Positions 14,755-23,355 of a stretch of 64,000 bases of DNA are shown in pieces. Source of the DNA: Lophium mytilinum (Eukaryota > Ascomycota > Dothideomycetes > Mytilinidiales > Mytilinidiaceae); NCBI GenBank assembly GCA_010093605.1, contig MU004187.1, positions 2,100,830 to 2,164,829 of the forward strand, in the 5' to 3' direction. The translations under genes were made by a program, and so were the position numbers. The notes beneath the pieces are model-generated. The model ran no database searches. It was given only the letters and a program-made list of their open reading frames with translations, and had not been told where the DNA came from. Every line of letters begins with the position of its first letter. Position 1 is the first letter of the stretch.

Positions 14755-15040
14755 GATGGCCCCCTCTATGTCGTTAAATATGTAACAATGCCTAGACTTG
14801 TAACGTAAGTGTAAGTAATCTCTAGATGTAATGGCCCCCTCTACGTCGTTGAATATGTGAACAATGCCCACAATTACTACGTAAGTGTAAGTAACCTCTG
14901 CATGCAATGGGCCCTCTACGTGGTTAAATATGTAAACAATTCCTAGACTTGCAATATAAGTGTAAGTAACCACTGCACGTAACGGCCCCCTCTACGTAGT
15001 TGATTGTATAAACAATACCTACCGAAGCTAGCACGTTCTT
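14755..15040. repeat. Tandem repeat, four units of 75-76 bp
   Basis: Units begin near 14755, 14831, 14907 and 14982. Each carries GGCCCCCTCTACGT, then an ATATGTAAACAAT-like stretch, then GTAAGTGTAAGTAA. Units differ by scattered substitutions. No coding potential. It lies about 215 bp downstream of the PAP2 stop codon. Confidence 0.8.
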
Positions 15041-15071
15041 ATTTTAGGTAGGTGTCTACCAGTTCTTGCTT

Positions 15072-15475
15072 GCTCAACGCCACCGTCAGGGGTGCCCCCA
15101 TTAGCAAGTGCCAACTACGCCAAAAGGTAGTCGAAAACTCCGTTCCGTCAGGGGCGCCCCCACTGTGAGGTGTTTGGCACCGTCTGAAGTCCTCTGGCGC
15201 TGCCAACATTGGGAGATAGGATGTCAAAATTCAGGAGGTTCAGATCGTATTGCGTTGACGTGGGTGGGTCCAGTGTATGTTTGCTGCCGTCTGAAGGCCT
15301 CTAAAGGTGCGAAAAATTGCCGACTTCATCAAATGATAGTTCAATTTCTATTACATTGACCTTCACATTGGGCACACAGGCACGAGTGTTTGCTCGCTCA
15401 ACACCACTGTAAGGGTGGCCCCCATTAGCAAGTGCCGACTACGCCAAAAGGTAGTCTAAATCTCGTTTCCTTGGC
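15072..15475. repeat. Decayed repeat block (families B and C)
   Basis: Family B: a segment of about 70 bp at 15072-15142 recurs at 15390-15462, sharing CCCCCATTAGCAAGTGCC and ACTACGCCAAAAGGTAGTC. Family C: TTTGGCACCGTCTGAAGTCC (15170) and TTTGCTGCCGTCTGAAGGCC (15280), related to 24930-25165. Most differences are transitions. No open frame; probably relics of non-autonomous elements. Confidence 0.6.
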
Positions 15476-15480
15476 CAACA

Positions 15481-18400
15481 CTACTGTACGCGGACCTTCG
15501 AAGTGACATCCCTAACCCGCTCTCCCCTGAAGAACACGCTGACTACCAGCGCCGGGAACGTAATCTCAATCTCATACTCAACGAGATACCAAATCCCCTG
15601 ATCATTCCTAAACTTCCGAAACTCGGCATCCGGATTTCTTCTCGTGAAATCCGTTCTGATCTCCGCGGCACACTGGACGATACATTGCTGAGAGCCTTGA
15701 GGGTAATACAAGTATGGATTCGGTGTGCCCCACTCAAGCGTCGGCAACCCGCGATCGTCCTCGAACAGGTAGATTTTCCCGGACGGGTCCAGCGTCAGGT
15801 TTGCATCAGCTGCCCACAGCTTATCCACCAGCACGAACGGGTCGACGTGGTCGAACTTGACCATTTTGGACGTCGGAATGCGTATTTTGTGGCCTGATTG
15901 GAGTGGCGCGCCGGCACTGAGTACTATGCAGACACAGTTGTTGCAGCGGTCTTGGTCGGGGCACCTCATTCGGAAGCGTTCGGGGTGCACGCCGGGGATG
16001 AAAAAGTCGGCGACCGAGAGGTAGTAGCTCTGCTGAGAGTATGCGCTGGCTTTCGGCAGGATGTCGGAGCTGAAGTTAGTCAGTCTGTCTGTGAGTCCGG
16101 CAGTGACCAGGCCCTTGACGACCGTTGCTTCGCTATCCATCGGTCGCACAACGGTGCAATAGTTCCGTGGCATACGCTTTTTGATTTGCTGGAAGAGGTA
16201 CTCGTTGGCCCCGAAAGAGCCGCAAATTAGCACGTACTGTTGTTGAAAACTTAGATAGTCGCTGACAGAGAGGGCTTGGACTTGTACGTTACCTGCAGAT
16301 TGATGTTGCATGCTTGGACGGCGATGACTTGATTATTGATCAACTCTAAAATCCTCTCGATGACAGGAGTGAAGCATCCCAGTATCTCTTCGTTGGTGAA
16401 CGTCATGTATCCATCATCGATGTCTGCTTCCACATAGTCGCGCTCGATCCCGACGTCGGTCGCCCACTTCTGGCCATTGTTCCTAAAATCGTCCCTGATA
16501 CGGCTATCGAACTCTATGATGCTCTTTGCGTACACCCTGCCTGCAGTTTTAGATCCATCTGGCAATTTCATTTTACGGACCTTGCTTCGCAGGATGTTGG
16601 CGAAGTTGCGATCCACCGCGGTATGTCTAGATGAAATATGTGTTAATAAACGGCTTGTGCTGCTAGGGTCGATTTACTCACCCGCAAGCATCACCACTAC
16701 TGCCCGTACATTTCCGGACCTTGAAAGGAGAATTGCTGCGCACTTCGAGCGCAACAAGGTCCACAAAACTCTTACCGCAATCTACGATCAATATTCCGTC
16801 GTGATTCTTCGAATCGAGTAGCCCGGATCTGGTACAATAATGTGCTGACGCTTCCGGGCCTGGGATGAGAGTCACTCGGGGATCGTGAACATCTTGCACG
16901 TATCCAGCCTGTACGATAGCTTTCTTGAAAGCCGTTTTTGCACCTTCTGTCCATATTGGAGGATGAGAAAAGTAGTATCGAACGATTGATGCATCGTTAG
17001 GAATTCGTGGACCGAGCGATTTCATTAAGGCGACCAGAGCGGCTTCGCGCAGGCGGGAAAGATAGTCGCCGACTAGATCTACAGCCGACTTTCCAGCTGG
17101 AAGGGGCGGTAAGGATTTGGCGTCGAGGTACGGATTTCCACCTTCCAGCTGCATATACACGTGTAACCATTCTGCTTTAGTTGTTCCAATTTTGGGCTGT
17201 CCATTTGGGCCGAGAGCGTCGGCAGTGTCCAAGCCCCAACCTACAACATTCGAGGAAATATCGTAATATATTGACGATGGAACCCTGGGCTATTGATTCG
17301 TTAGCTAAAATGTGCTAGACAACAAGGAAGCCGTCAGAGCCTACTTTCGTAATTAACCCAGCTCCTGGCCATTCCGTTATGATGTCTTCTCTAGCTTCAG
17401 TGTCAGTTGCATATGCAAAAGCAACCGACGAGTGCGTGGCCCCAAAGTCGATACCAATTATCAAGTGGGCGTTTGACTTGGCTGACGAGCTTTGATAAAT
17501 CTGTGGAGCCGATGCAGGTTGATTTGAAGTCGTGCTTCCGTCATTCTTTGTGACCCAAGGCATCGCCGCTGGCGCTACTACCTGCGATACTGGTGAAGGT
17601 CGATTCGATGACGCGTTCCGGTCGTTCTTTGTGACCCACTGTATTGGTGACTTGATGGGTGACGGCAGCTGTGAGGAGTTTGGCGAAGCGGTACCCGGCG
17701 AATAATGCGATGCAGGTCGCGTAGATGGCCGAGGATCATTGGGCTGGCTCAAGAGGAAATCTGCGGCCAGTTCCTCGTTCTTGTCGAAATTGAAATAAGC
17801 CTGGATCACGGGATCTAGCTCGAAACCGAGGCCACGTAGCTAGAGATATTAGAGATCAAAAAGAGTAAGAAAGGGAATAGTGAACTGACTCGCTCGATGG
17901 CGACCCGTTCCTCTTCTGTCACACTGATGGTGTGTGATCCAGGAGGGAGCTCGGCGACCTCGTCGATATCTTCAGCAAGAAGCTGGAGGAATTGCTCTGG
18001 GTTAGCGGCAATGAGTTTTGCCAGCTGAGGGTTTACGGTGGCTGTTTGCTGCAGAATCGGCTCTAACATATGGGGCTGTTGCTGAACAACTCGACAAAAC
18101 TGCTGGAAGTGAGGATCGCTGCGGAGGAACTCGATGCTGCTACCACCAAGCGCTTGAGAAGTCGTAGAACCAGCCTCGAATGGATTTACAGGGTTTTTTG
18201 AGAGCACGGCCGACGGAGTATTTGTAGCGGATGGCGAACGTGTATGTGAATTGTATGGATTATTGATGTGAGGATTAGGAGATGACGATGGTGTTGAAGC
18301 GGATGGCGATCGTACATGGGGGCTGCTTGGATTTAGGTAAGGATTAGTAGAAGACGATGGCTTTCGGGACTGGATCTGTGCAGGGTTTGAACTGCCAAAA

Positions 18401-20210
18401 GGCGTAAGGGATGAGCTAGGCTGCTTATATCCTGGTCGGGCAGGCTGAGATTGAACTGATCTGGCTGGTGAGGGTTGACGAGGAGGAGGAGATGTTGGCC
18501 CTGTTGATCTTATAGATGTTGAATCTGGGGTGTGAACGGTACCGTCCCAGCGCTTTCCGGGGGACTCTGCAAGGGGACTATTTGCGGGAGGTAGCCCTAG
18601 ACGGCTGCGGAGAGGATTTCCCGGCTCCTGGACTGACGGAACCAGGAAGTTTCCTGCTGCACTGGTCGTGTCAGAAACAATGTCCTCGTGGACTAGATCG
18701 CGCAAAGGCCTTGCTAAGTATTGGAGAAACCCAGCGTCAACCTCGACGTCGTACTTTGCAGGTAAGAAGCCACGGCAGCCCTCAGCTTCAGCCATGTCAC
18801 CCTTTCTTTCGTGAATGAGCGCGAGAAGTGCCATGGATTCGTGAAATGGTGCACTTTCTTTGCCCCCAAGCCTCCGTCTCCCCATCAGCGCCTTCTTACA
18901 GTATCGGATAGCGGCATCATGTGCGTCGCCTTGAAGCTTTAGAAGAGCTAAGGCATGGAGACCGTCATATGCCAGCGGCTCCTTGACCTTTTTAAGGGTA
19001 GTGAGGCTAGCAAGAACATTTTCGGCATCTCTCCATCGCGCTTGTTTGCCGTACGCGTATGCTTGCATCAACCTGATTTTGGAGACCCCACCTGGCAAGT
19101 CGTCTGTTGAACGGCTCACGACTTTGCATAGGAATCTCTCGGCATTCGGATAGTCTCCGGCTGTGAAACTTGATATAGCGAGGTCATTGAAGTTCTTCAC
19201 AAAGTCTCTCTCCATATCGGAGTCCGGATCGGAGTCTTCTAGCTCGACATCTTCGGTCGTACCGCTAACTGATTCATTGGCTTCTGTGCCTTCTTCTTCG
19301 ATTGTAGGAGGAGGTATCCAGTTTTCAATGCGCTGGGCCTGATCATCGCTCAAAGGATCGCCGTAAACAGAACCGCCCCATATCGTACCCTCGCCTACAA
19401 CTGTGCTGGCACTGGAATGGAATGATTCTGCAACACGAACGAATTGTCTCAAGTTGCGTGAGATGCGTTCGTTATCCTCTTGCACGTCGGAAGATGGCGG
19501 CTCGGAAGAATCGTTTCGAGACCTAACCGCAACTTCTACTCTGCCAATTTGGGTTTTAAGATCACCAAGAACCCGGGACATTGATTCTTGGGACGAGCCG
19601 CTTCTTAGCAACAAGAGTCTAGAATGATGTGAGCACTCCCCGAATGAAAATATACGCATACATATGAGACGACGGCAATCAAAGAGCTTACACGTTGATC
19701 ATTTGGAAGGCGGATTGCATTGCACTGTTATGGGAATGTACCTGCTGCCGGAAGGCCGTGATATCTTTCATCATCATGTTCAACTTTATCGACATTGTCG
19801 GCTTCCGGAGGAACCCTCTCCCCAGGAAGCTGGTCTTCTGCACCTCTACGAGCCGCTTGTCCAATTTCCCTAGCGTAATCTGGCAGTCGTCCAGCGACCC
19901 TCGGACTGTGATCCATAGATCCCGATCTCCAGTTTTCTGAGTAGTCGCAAGAAGCGGATTCTGCTTCCAGGAGTGGCCGACTGCATTGAGGGCGCGTTGA
20001 AGACCATTTATCTCTTCGCATAGGCCAGCTACACTATCGTCTACGCCTCGGGCATCGTCTATGAAGGTGTAAAGTATCCCTGAGACCTTTTCACTGCGAA
20101 TCAGTCTGACGCTCGATACGCTGGACACTCCAGCACCTCGGGTGGGTACTGACCTTGATACAGAGGCCAGCGATGCCTGCGGCGGACGATGCAATGGACA
20201 AGGGATCCAT
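15481..20210 (-). CDS. Chimeric protein: STAND N-terminal domain, TPR-like region, Rad23-type XPC-binding + UBA, Hsp70-like ATPase
   Basis: Model: complement(15481-16236, 16293-16626, 16682-17289, 17345-17839, 17890-19618, 19692-20086, 20154-20210), 1457 aa. Residues 1 to about 190: fungal STAND N-terminal domain, opening MDPLSIASSAAGIAGLCIK. About 286-435: TPR-like helices (FTAGDYPNAERFL). About 480-640: Ser/Pro linker. About 646-700: Rad23 XPC-binding domain (FLRSDPHFQQF, NPQLAKLIAANPEQFLQLL). About 716-760: Rad23-type UBA (EERVAIERLRGLGF, VIQAYFNFDKNEELAADFLL). Two WVTKND motifs lie near 794 and 821. About 853-1300: Hsp70-like ATPase (IGIDFGATHSSVAF; YVLICGSFGANEYLF). The phosphate-2 loop reads DCGKSFVDL (from 1062) where this fungal family usually has DCGGGTVDL, so ATP hydrolysis may be impaired. 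No ubiquitin-like domain or NACHT/NB-ARC is present. Exon 3 is one 1729-nt frame covering TPR to UBA start; exon 4 covers UBA end to ATPase start. The whole-protein role is unknown. Confidence 0.85.
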
Positions 20211-20535
20211 CGCAGCATTTTACCGGCAAAGCTTCTGGCGGAGGACAAGTTGTCCATGAAGTGACTGCGAGAGCCGCCTTCCACGGGCGCCATGAGGGGC
20301 GCTTCCAGATCGCGAGGCTGAGTTCTCGGTTGTCTTCTGCATTTCGAGTTAGGATAGTTCTAAACCTTGGAAGCTGGGATATTCACGTGATGCTGCTCTA
20401 CGGCATACTCCATGAGTTCCCCCGCTGCAGCATCCCGTACCAACGCGTCTTGCATCGCGTTCTTGGAAACTTTTCTACAGCACGCCCGAGATACTCAATC
20501 TCTGGGCACTCAACCTCTTATTGTCCCCGTTCGCG
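20211..20535. promoter_or_regulatory. Shared divergent promoter region, chimera gene / RDH54
   Basis: 325 bp separate the two start codons, so both promoters and 5' UTRs must lie here. I saw no clear TATA box. The arrangement allows co-regulation; that is inference. Confidence 0.5.
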
Positions 20536-23355
20536 ATGATTCAGAAGCCATTTAGACCACCGCTGCTGACCAGGAAGCCGGCCGAAGCTCCCCGACCAGA
20601 GTTCAATCACGCAGCAGATACAGAACCGCCCTCCAAAAAGCGACGCATCTCCTCCAACGATGACGATAGCCAGTTCGATGCTGTCACTACAACTCTTTCA
20701 AAACCACATAACCACGTCAACACAGCCCGAAAGCCATTGGTTCCGGTCCGCAATCCTTCGAGCTTGAGCAGCGCTCCAGCAAAACCGTCTGGAGGAGTAG
20801 AGGGATACTATGTAGTCTTGTGGCGCAAGTTCACGATGAAGAAAAACAAAACCTGGGACGGTGACGGAGTCCTTGCCGTGTTCAACGGATACGCATATCT
20901 CCAAGATATCTCCGGAAGGGAGCTTGGGAAGACCGCCTGCACCTCGCCATTACTACCAGGCTCCACCCTTTCCGTGGGAGGAAAAGATGTCGAGGTTGAC
21001 TCTTTAATCTCGAAGGAAGACTTCCTCGCTGGCAAGCCCTTTTTGGGCAAAATGTCGACTGCTGCAGCGCCAGCGCCAGTGTCAGACCCAGAACGCAGAC
21101 CACTTCCAAAACCCAAGCTTAAAGTGAAAGAGGAGAAGATAGCAGCCCGCCAAGTAGAGGTTCTGAATGTTGCCGCCCCAGCCAGCAAAGCTACCCAGAG
21201 CAAGTTCAAGAATCCTTTGCTATCCAATACTGTCATGACCAAGCCTGTCGACAAAGAGACTCCCCTTCCCCGGCATGATCCAACTACAGAAAACGCCCTC
21301 GTCATGAAAAGACCGACTATACGTCCGCAGGGCAAGCAAATTGTGGACGTGGTAGTAGATCCTGTTCTCTCCAAGCATCTCCGGGACCATCAACGTGAAG
21401 GCGTCCAGTTCCTGTACGAGTGTGTGATGGGCATGAGATCTAACGGCGAAGGGGCCATACTTGCGGATGAGATGGGCCTAGGAAAGACTTTGCAAACCAT
21501 CGCGCTACTCTGGACTCTACTCAAGCAGAATCCAATCTACCAAGAAGGTCCCGTGGTGAAAAAGGCACTCATTGTGTGTCCCGCTGGACTTCTGAACAAT
21601 TGGCGAAGAGAGTTTAGAAAGTGGCTTGGAAATGAAAGAATTGGAGTCTTCGTTGTTGAAGGGAAGAACGTTCGCCTGGCTGACTTCACTAAAGGAAAAG
21701 CCTACAGCGTTATGATCATTGGCTATGAAATGCTTCGTAACGTGCAGGAACAACTCAAGAAGGGTAGCGGGATCGATATTGTCATCGCTGATGAAGGCCA
21801 TCGACTTAAGACCGCGAACAACAAGGCAATGCTAGCAATACAGTCCCTTAACACGGACCGAAGGATCATACTTTCAGGGACCCCGCTGCAGAACGATTTG
21901 AGCGAGTTCTACACGGCTATCGACTTCGTCAATCCAGGCTTATTAGGAAAGCGGAACGTGTTCAAGAAGGAATTTGAGAACCCAATCATGCGAGGTCGGC
22001 AACCAGAGGCAACCGCAAAGGATCACGAAAAAGGTGAAGCCCGATGGCAGGAACTCGTCTCGATTGCAGGCCAATTTATGATCCGCCGCACTGCCGATGT
22101 GCTGGCGAAGTATCTGCCGCCCAAGAGCGAGTACATCTTGTTCTGCAAACCAACACCTGTTCAGTCAACCGTTTACACGAACGTGCTAAAGTCTCCGTTT
22201 TTCTCCGCAGCTCTTGGGAACACTGAAACCGCTCTGCAACTCATCAACATCTTGAAGAAGGTGTGCAACAGCCCGACGCTTCTCAAAGCTAAAAATCCCG
22301 ACGATGCTCCTTCAGAGATGCTAGCGAGCTTCACAGCTGCCATTGCACCTTCAGTACTCTCATCCAATCGGTGCAGCTCCAAAATCAGGGTTCTCGACGC
22401 CTTGCTACATCGCATCCATACGAACACCGATGAGAAGGTTGTCATAGTCTCGAATTACACGTCCACACTAGATATCATCGGTCGCCTCCTTTCTTCTCTG
22501 GACTATGCGTTCCTCCGGCTGGACGGCTCCACTCCAGCGTCGAAACGCCAGGATCTTGTGGAACGCTTCAATAGGACTAGCCAGAAGAGTTGTTTCGCTT
22601 TCCTGCTCTCCGCCAAATCCGGCGGTGTTGGCCTTAATCTGATTGGCGCCTCCCGACTCGTTCTATTCGACTTAGACTGGAATCCCGCCACCGACCTTCA
22701 AGCCATGGCGAGGATACATCGCGATGGACAGAAGAAACCATGCAAAATCTATCGTTTGCTTGTGCAAGGCGCTTTAGACGAGAAGATCTTCCAGCGACAG
22801 GTCACCAAGCAGGGTCTCGCGGACGCTGTTGTCGACAAAAAGGCCAGCGCCGCCAGTTTCTCCCACGAGGAGCTAAGAGACTTGTTCAGCTTGGACGAAA
22901 AGGATCACTGCCAGACACATGACCTGATTGGATGCACATGCGAGGGTAAAGGTCATGATGCCCCTATCGTACCCATCACTTCCGCGGAACTGGTCTTAGA
23001 CACCGAACCTACAGATGTGGTTGATAGCGATGAGGAACTTCCAGACCTACCAACTCTGCTGAGAGCATCTCAGGTCAACATGGAAGAGCAAGAGCAGCGA
23101 CTGAAAGAGCAAAGAGAGGCGAGAACCAAGCTAACAACCGACGGAAAGCCAAAATTGAGGTCTCTCATGCAGTACCAGCACCTGGATCCGCGCTACCTGT
23201 CCCCCACGAGAGCAGAATCAGAGTCGGAAGGAGCTGTTCGAGAAGACCATGTCGACATCGAGACGCTTATGGATGATGACATTTTGCTTGATATTCTGAA
23301 AGCAGGAGATGAGCATTGCAGCATCGGCTTCGTTTTTGCGAAGATGTCGTCTTGA
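20536..23355 (+). CDS. RDH54: Rdh54/Tid1 (RAD54B-type) Swi2/Snf2 DNA translocase
   Basis: Single exon, 939 aa from the first ATG. An ATP-driven translocase that works with Rad51/Dmc1 in homologous recombination, in the nucleus. The N-terminal part (about 1-240) is basic and disordered but contains the RAD54B/Rdh54-type block YYVVLWRKFTMKKNKTWDGD. The core has motif I DEMGLGKT (311-318), motif II DEGH (419-422), motif III SGTPLQND, an RRT motif after the first RecA lobe, and in the second lobe GLNLIGASRLVLFDLDWN and ARIHRDGQ (motif VI, with HRDGQ as usual in this family). Zn-binding-like Cys/His residues (DHCQTHDLIGCTC) follow, as in Rad54 relatives. The tail is acidic. Divergent from the Rad23-domain chimera. 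Confidence 0.92.
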   Translation: MIQKPFRPPLLTRKPAEAPRPEFNHAADTEPPSKKRRISSNDDDSQFDAVTTTLSKPHNHVNTARKPLVPVRNPSSLSSAPAKPSGGVEGYYVVLWRKFTMKKNKTWDGDGVLAVFNGYAYLQDISGRELGKTACTSPLLPGSTLSVGGKDVEVDSLISKEDFLAGKPFLGKMSTAAAPAPVSDPERRPLPKPKLKVKEEKIAARQVEVLNVAAPASKATQSKFKNPLLSNTVMTKPVDKETPLPRHDPTTENALVMKRPTIRPQGKQIVDVVVDPVLSKHLRDHQREGVQFLYECVMGMRSNGEGAILADEMGLGKTLQTIALLWTLLKQNPIYQEGPVVKKALIVCPAGLLNNWRREFRKWLGNERIGVFVVEGKNVRLADFTKGKAYSVMIIGYEMLRNVQEQLKKGSGIDIVIADEGHRLKTANNKAMLAIQSLNTDRRIILSGTPLQNDLSEFYTAIDFVNPGLLGKRNVFKKEFENPIMRGRQPEATAKDHEKGEARWQELVSIAGQFMIRRTADVLAKYLPPKSEYILFCKPTPVQSTVYTNVLKSPFFSAALGNTETALQLINILKKVCNSPTLLKAKNPDDAPSEMLASFTAAIAPSVLSSNRCSSKIRVLDALLHRIHTNTDEKVVIVSNYTSTLDIIGRLLSSLDYAFLRLDGSTPASKRQDLVERFNRTSQKSCFAFLLSAKSGGVGLNLIGASRLVLFDLDWNPATDLQAMARIHRDGQKKPCKIYRLLVQGALDEKIFQRQVTKQGLADAVVDKKASAASFSHEELRDLFSLDEKDHCQTHDLIGCTCEGKGHDAPIVPITSAELVLDTEPTDVVDSDEELPDLPTLLRASQVNMEEQEQRLKEQREARTKLTTDGKPKLRSLMQYQHLDPRYLSPTRAESESEGAVREDHVDIETLMDDDILLDILKAGDEHCSIGFVFAKMSS

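Follow-up and report, generated by a model that had tools for sequence, protein, structure and literature searches.

The XPC-binding domain of the ubiquitin shuttle Rad23 is described as Sti1-like (PMC5028754), and the STI1 domains of the ubiquilins are reported to bind hydrophobic segments as well as internal placeholder sequences (PMC13083928). For the STI1 motifs of Dsk2, binding of Stch, a protein of the Hsp70 family, was reported (PMC4092868), and the UBA2 domain of Rad23 is presented as a transferable stabilisation signal that is abolished by the mutation L392A (PMC2535603). In fungi, Helo_like_N (PF17111) was one of the effector domains searched in a study of NLR proteins, where a PF17111 match coincided with an MLKL executioner domain in a basidiomycete cluster (PMC9815663). 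Here we describe a gene that joins parts of these kinds in one protein, on the minus strand of a 64,000-nucleotide stretch of DNA from Lophium mytilinum, a fungus of the Mytilinidiales, Dothideomycetes (the window; contig C7:2100830-2164829 of a 43.2 Mb genome in 24 contigs). Very probably, portions of the two final RAD23 exons were copied as DNA into the disordered linker of a gene with HeLo-like, TPR and Hsp70-like parts, in frame and with splice sites intact, which gave a young chimeric gene. The anatomy and origin of this chimera are well supported; its function, which we infer, would be that of a ubiquitin-binding scaffold without proteasome docking, and for anatomy and mechanism taken jointly the probability is put at roughly 0.45.

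The donor was found in the same genome. The earlier note on this DNA, made from the letters of the window, had proposed to look for a separate canonical RAD23, and an intact one with UBL, UBA and XPC-binding domains lies on contig C15, its protein being 100% identical to the database protein P0030 (Lophium mytilinum RAD23). The DNA of the chimera was aligned with this gene and the following segments were delimited.

17742..18178, minus strand: RAD23-homologous block of 437 bp, ungapped, intron 3 included; 356 of 437 positions identical (81%)
17840..17889, minus strand: intron 3, 50 nt, at the site of the intron in RAD23's UBA2; 40 of 50 positions identical
18178..18195, minus strand: PVN-FE stretch, where the RAD23-derived segment likely has its left edge; read by eye, unscored

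Identity was even across the block, with 30 to 43 identical bases per 50-base step (the last step has 37 bases). Because the RAD23 intron is included, the insert is a DNA duplication and a retrocopy origin was ruled out. On this alignment, the Rad23 part is a DNA-level duplication of the genome's own RAD23, and its origin as an intron-bearing copy is new beyond the earlier note. The direction of copying was from RAD23 to the chimera, since RAD23 is intact and conserved and the relatives of the recipient have no Rad23 part. No further DNA copy was found in the genome beyond the window and RAD23; the protein-level search also matched contig C2. By eye, PVN-FEA of the RAD23 linker is kept in the chimera and followed by a deletion relative to RAD23, and at the other end homology stops about seven codons short of RAD23's stop. 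Homology in the linker upstream of PVN-FEA is doubtful: the best match, 20 nt around GPTSPPP, had a score reached by 6 of 500 shuffles with the PVN-FEA end and by 9 of 500 without it.

Chimera and RAD23 thus have in common the XPC-binding domain, the hinge, UBA2 and the intron with its sequence; they differ in that the chimera lacks UBL and UBA1, and the RAD23 record lists no TPR or Hsp70 domain. In a protein tree of the short module (29 rows), 3 of 26 inner branches were well supported, the chimera formed a long branch and it was grouped with its own RAD23 in only 6% of 200 bootstrap trees. As this tree left the chimera unplaced, the evidence that it is close to Lophium's own RAD23 comes from the alignment of DNA and intron.

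A profile search gave three XPC-binding matches in the genome: RAD23 on C15, the chimera and a third on C2. The latter gene (L004:2678-6706, plus strand; C2:2127177-2131205) encodes a near-complete Hsp70 (488 bits), an XPC-binding domain, which scores 31.1 bits against a cut-off of 26.4 and is identical to that of the chimera at 27 of 72 residues, and then a protein kinase spread over two open frames, the second of which gives 101 bits. It had no UBA match at E up to 5 and its DNA is not clearly similar to that of RAD23, so that it is perhaps an older, separate combination.

Rebuilding of the chimeric gene with a splice model on the window DNA gave one continuous model from 20210 to 15481, with the ends, length and sizes of exons 3 (1729 nt) and 4 (495 nt) that the earlier note had given. 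Both fusion joints fall within exons, which bears out its statement that the fusions are in the DNA itself. The parts of the gene are as follows.

15481..20210, minus strand: entire chimeric gene from ATG to stop codon; 1457 aa in 7 exons
20210-20154, 20086-19692, 19618-17890, 17839-17345, 17289-16682, 16626-16293 and 16236-15481, minus strand: exons
19618..20210, minus strand: PigL_N / HeLo-like N-terminal domain, aa 1-151, spanning exons 1 and 2 plus the first base of exon 3; Pfam PF17111, E 3.2e-7, over cut-off
18772..19227, minus strand: TPR solenoid in exon 3; structure prediction, Foldseek, VIA-align and TPR_12 in relatives
18151..18684, minus strand: disordered Pro/Ser-rich linker, nearly all with a prediction confidence (pLDDT) below 50
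17968..18132, minus strand: XPC-binding (Rad4-binding, STI1-like) domain, aa 647-701; Pfam PF09280, E 2.6e-19; five helices
17753..17901, minus strand: UBA2 domain, aa 724-756, split by intron 3; Pfam PF00627, E 9.2e-7; RAD23 matches in the Protein Data Bank (PDB)
15484..17470, minus strand: Hsp70-like (HSPA12-type) domain with degenerate nucleotide motifs, placed by alignment to relatives; fold seen in the model of relative P0001

The six introns are all GT-AG and measure 67, 73, 50, 55, 55 and 56 nt in order. For the last one, alternatives were enumerated mechanically; a 26-nt candidate was dropped and the 56-nt intron at 16292-16237 chosen, because its size is unremarkable and the residues brought together by it are conserved in relatives.

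The domain search suggested by the earlier note returned both Rad23 domains with the E values listed above. They stand in their native order, XPC-binding domain before C-terminal UBA2, and no ubiquitin-family (UBL) domain was found in the 1457 aa at E up to 1, as had been claimed. The single UBA stretch aligns to UBA2, so that the UBA1 typical of the RAD23 family is lacking. The five XPC-binding helices were predicted at about 85 pLDDT and the XPC-UBA part matched RAD23A/B chains in the PDB with E 1.8e-26 to 8.9e-26. The TPR-like region noted earlier was recovered as well: the predicted structure had block means mostly of 84-97 pLDDT (one block 78), and Foldseek and VIA-align matched it to the TPRs of kinesin light chain and LGN. 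The VIA-align rows concern almost only the TPR and have no bearing on the XPC-binding domain. In the chimera itself TPR_12 was weak (aa 372-430, E 0.0025, under the Pfam cut-off).

The N-terminus had been called NLR-type. This is apt in that PF17111 was counted among NLR effector domains (PMC9815663), but no NACHT or NB-ARC domain (none among six families) was found in the chimera at E up to 1, and for this reason the protein, judged by its domains, is not an NLR.

A whole-length protein search with the chimera, in which relatives sharing 5-residue words were sought among proteins of 801-2549 aa and the 8000 best candidates scored, gave 24 relatives. Twenty of them were aligned, P0017, P0022, P0023 and P0024 being left out. 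At E up to 0.01, PF17111 was present in 17 of the 20, TPR_12 in 18 and HSP70 in three, and none matched XPC-binding or UBA; these two domains are also not listed among the precomputed domains of the four proteins left out. In P0012 and P0019 the Hsp70-like part is preceded by other N-termini. A PF17111 N-terminus, TPR and HSPA12-like C-terminal half follow one another in the chimera as in the family. Glonium stellatum P0005 (best local identity to the chimera 51%) and Diplogelasinospora grovesii P0002, named heat shock 70 kDa protein 12B (42%), have the N-terminal domain, TPR, linker and Hsp70-like domain in this same order; unlike in the chimera, no Rad23 part was found in the parent-family proteins retrieved. 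At the insertion site the linker varies in length among the relatives. By this alignment, the HeLo-like/TPR/Hsp70-like arrangement is an existing family of the Pezizomycotina and the Rad23 part an insertion into its linker. Genome-wide, 25 PF17111 stretches were counted at E up to 0.001, 16 of them over the cut-off and one gene accounting for at least two; this count excludes the chimera's own domain, which introns split. The HeLo-like family is therefore sizeable in Lophium mytilinum.

The Hsp70-like part of the chimera had no PF00012 match by itself at E up to 5 and was recognised only via its relatives. The fold is present in the predicted structure of relative P0001, not of the chimera itself, and the HeLo-like domain of P0001 was modelled without confidence. 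The phosphate and adenosine motifs, through whose residues Hsp70 holds its nucleotide, read DFGAT for DFGTT, GP for EP, DCGKSF for DCGGGT and GSFG for GGFG in comparison with intact HSPA12-type references (P0012, P0019 and the genome's own copy on C14, the last two being incomplete or misaligned at some motifs). GGGT of the second phosphate motif is kept in three (P0001, P0012, P0019) of the 17 database proteins with residues there, four others being gapped, a count that faulty gene models of some relatives may touch; P0001 is the only one of the three with a HeLo-like N-terminus. With ATP motifs that are degenerate across the family, the Hsp70-like part of the chimera probably serves for binding and not as an ATPase. 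Of the Hsp70/actin-fold ATPase proposed earlier, the Hsp70 likeness stood by way of the relatives, but ATPase activity is unlikely.

A second search, with the XPC-binding/UBA module and again for relatives sharing 5-residue words among proteins of 801-2549 aa, with all 824 candidates scored, returned five other long proteins. Four have a ubiquitin domain and the fifth combines Med6 with UBA and XPC-binding parts; at E up to 0.001 neither HeLo-like nor Hsp70 domains were matched in any of the five, and we read them as RAD23 fused with its neighbour. The architecture of the chimera was thus not found in a second protein in either search within these limits of length and word sharing, nor was a description of it noticed in the literature searched. 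Hsp70 and Rad23 did not occur in those fungal NLR and fungal immunity papers in which each was searched for as a term, and in one of these papers neither ubiquitin nor chaperone occurred. The claim of an unprecedented architecture is borne out to this extent, but because most of the architecture belongs to an existing family, the novelty comes down to a single insertion.

Over the insert, 93 of 128 codons specify the same residue as in RAD23. Synonymous divergence (dS) was 0.47 (0.30-0.68) and nonsynonymous divergence (dN) 0.15, with dN/dS 0.32 (0.19-0.56, codon bootstrap); by part, pairwise dN/dS was 0.27 for linker and XPC-binding domain and 0.42 for hinge and UBA. The first, second and third codon positions differ in 23, 14 and 34 of 128 cases. 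Differences were counted at 7 of 41 sites of the inner intron and at 14 of 43 fourfold sites (p 0.13). From the XPC-binding domain onward, 32 of 117 alignable positions differ from the genome's own RAD23 (three more differences, in the short linker before this domain, are excluded). When polarised against Cenococcum, Lepidopterella and Glonium, 28 of the 32 fell on the chimera side, one on the RAD23 side and three were ambiguous. Of the 66 positions shared with human HR23A, 11 were changed, and of the remaining 51 positions, 21 (Fisher p 0.006). UBA2 retains its LGF loop and FLL, as well as the residue that we take to correspond to yeast L392 in yeast chain numbering. The pairwise dN/dS and the sparing of human-shared positions show constraint; given the 28 changes against one, the insert appears from these comparisons to be constrained but far freer than RAD23.

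The same data suit a tolerated passenger, an in-frame RAD23 piece that landed in the disordered linker and folds harmlessly with no selected role. The variable length of the linker in relatives, the even divergence along the block and the preponderance of changes on the chimera side all agree with it; the frame and splice sites, however, are intact at dS of about 0.47, and changes avoid the human-shared positions. We consider a passenger somewhat unlikely.

For a ubiquitin-binding scaffold without proteasome docking, the parent protein is pictured as a scaffold whose TPR and degenerate Hsp70-like domain would bind partners without ATP turnover and whose HeLo-like domain would serve as output. 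The insert would add UBA2, with predicted ubiquitin binding, and an STI1-like groove, a possible binding site for clients or Rad4. Lacking a UBL for proteasome docking, the chimera could engage ubiquitylated proteins yet not deliver them, and UBA2 may also shield the chimera itself from degradation. This reading was favoured because of the Sti1-like character of the XPC-binding domain, the reported binding by STI1 domains and the stabilising signal in UBA2, whose L392-aligned residue is kept. Ubiquilin/Dsk2 and STI1-type co-chaperones likewise have an STI1-like helical domain together with UBA; the chimera differs in lacking a UBL and in having the Hsp70-like part fused in cis, and its TPR resembles those of kinesin light chain and LGN. 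The ubiquitin-sensing and chaperone-like roles named in the earlier note are conceivable within this scheme. In the chimera, a ubiquitin-binding type of domain is tied to a fungal HeLo-like protein. As to its origin, the gene represents a fusion by segmental duplication caught while donor gene, copied intron and recipient family are still recognisable.

Alternatively, the chimera could be an integrated decoy, in which the copied XPC-UBA2 part serves as bait for a viral or parasite protein directed against RAD23, upon which the HeLo-like domain would set off a death or defence response. Such a decoy would be a duplicated host target fused to an immune receptor and bound by a pathogen effector; the RAD23 duplication is seen in the sequence and the receptor role of the chimera is putative. 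As in the Sordariales NLRs for which a CHK-2 kinase domain was proposed as putative integrated decoy (PMC12258605), a housekeeping domain was duplicated in the genome and fused to a defence-type protein, here one with a domain of fungal NLRs, although the chimera has no NACHT or NB-ARC. The insert moreover changes much faster than its parent while the human-shared positions are spared. Phytoplasma phyllogens recognise RAD23 UBA2 (PMC10799209), and PDB chain 6xqj joins Vpr with the corresponding part of RAD23A; together with the decoys proposed in fungal NLRs, these make the decoy a serious rival. It is set back by the missing nucleotide-binding domain of NLRs, by a pairwise dN/dS below 1 and by the acceleration being equally expected under relaxed constraint. 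We know of no effector targeting RAD23 in fungi. On balance a decoy is unlikely, and its wider form, a fungal integrated decoy outside the NLRs by which attack on the ubiquitin shuttle would trigger a death response via a HeLo-like protein, is somewhat less likely still. The chimera nevertheless offers a concrete candidate for the question of integrated decoys in fungi raised by the NLR work (PMC12258605).

Several points weigh against the scaffold as the preferred reading. The rate of change in the insert is far above that in RAD23 (28 changes versus one, p 1.1e-7). Changed human-shared positions include L to P, A to N, C to F and N to D in UBA2 and R to C and Q to R in the XPC-binding domain, and many of the new residues are absent from the 120 RAD23 proteins compared (120 listed of 3773 matches). 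The dN/dS value, being pairwise, also takes in the RAD23 branch, which is strongly conserved; as the RAD23 protein hardly changes, dN/dS on the chimera branch could by our estimate be about 0.6 if synonymous changes are split evenly, which makes relaxed constraint possible. We know of no function for the parent family. The chimera is known from one genome and from its DNA, and the 24 matches of the whole-length search include no Lophium-named protein, though the same database holds the Lophium RAD23; the public gene model may therefore differ or be split.

The reading from DNA and the missing Lophium-named match would also suit an error of the gene model, two genes or a pseudogene read as one. 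The exon 3 frame, however, has 0 stops in 576 codons (16-30 stops in each of the other five frames), the six introns are canonical, both joints lie inside exons and the domains flanking the insert belong to one family in other species, which makes such an error very improbable.

Just 3' of the stop codon of the chimera, repeats were found at window positions 14756-15021 and 15058-15470: a 75-nt unit in 3.5 tandem copies and two direct repeats of 89 nt each. On the other side, an SNF2-type helicase frame lies divergent from the chimera at 20416-23352 on the plus strand (SNF2-related domain, 249 bits), which we read as Rad54-like. With its ATG taken at 20536, about 0.3 kb separate the start codons of helicase and chimera.

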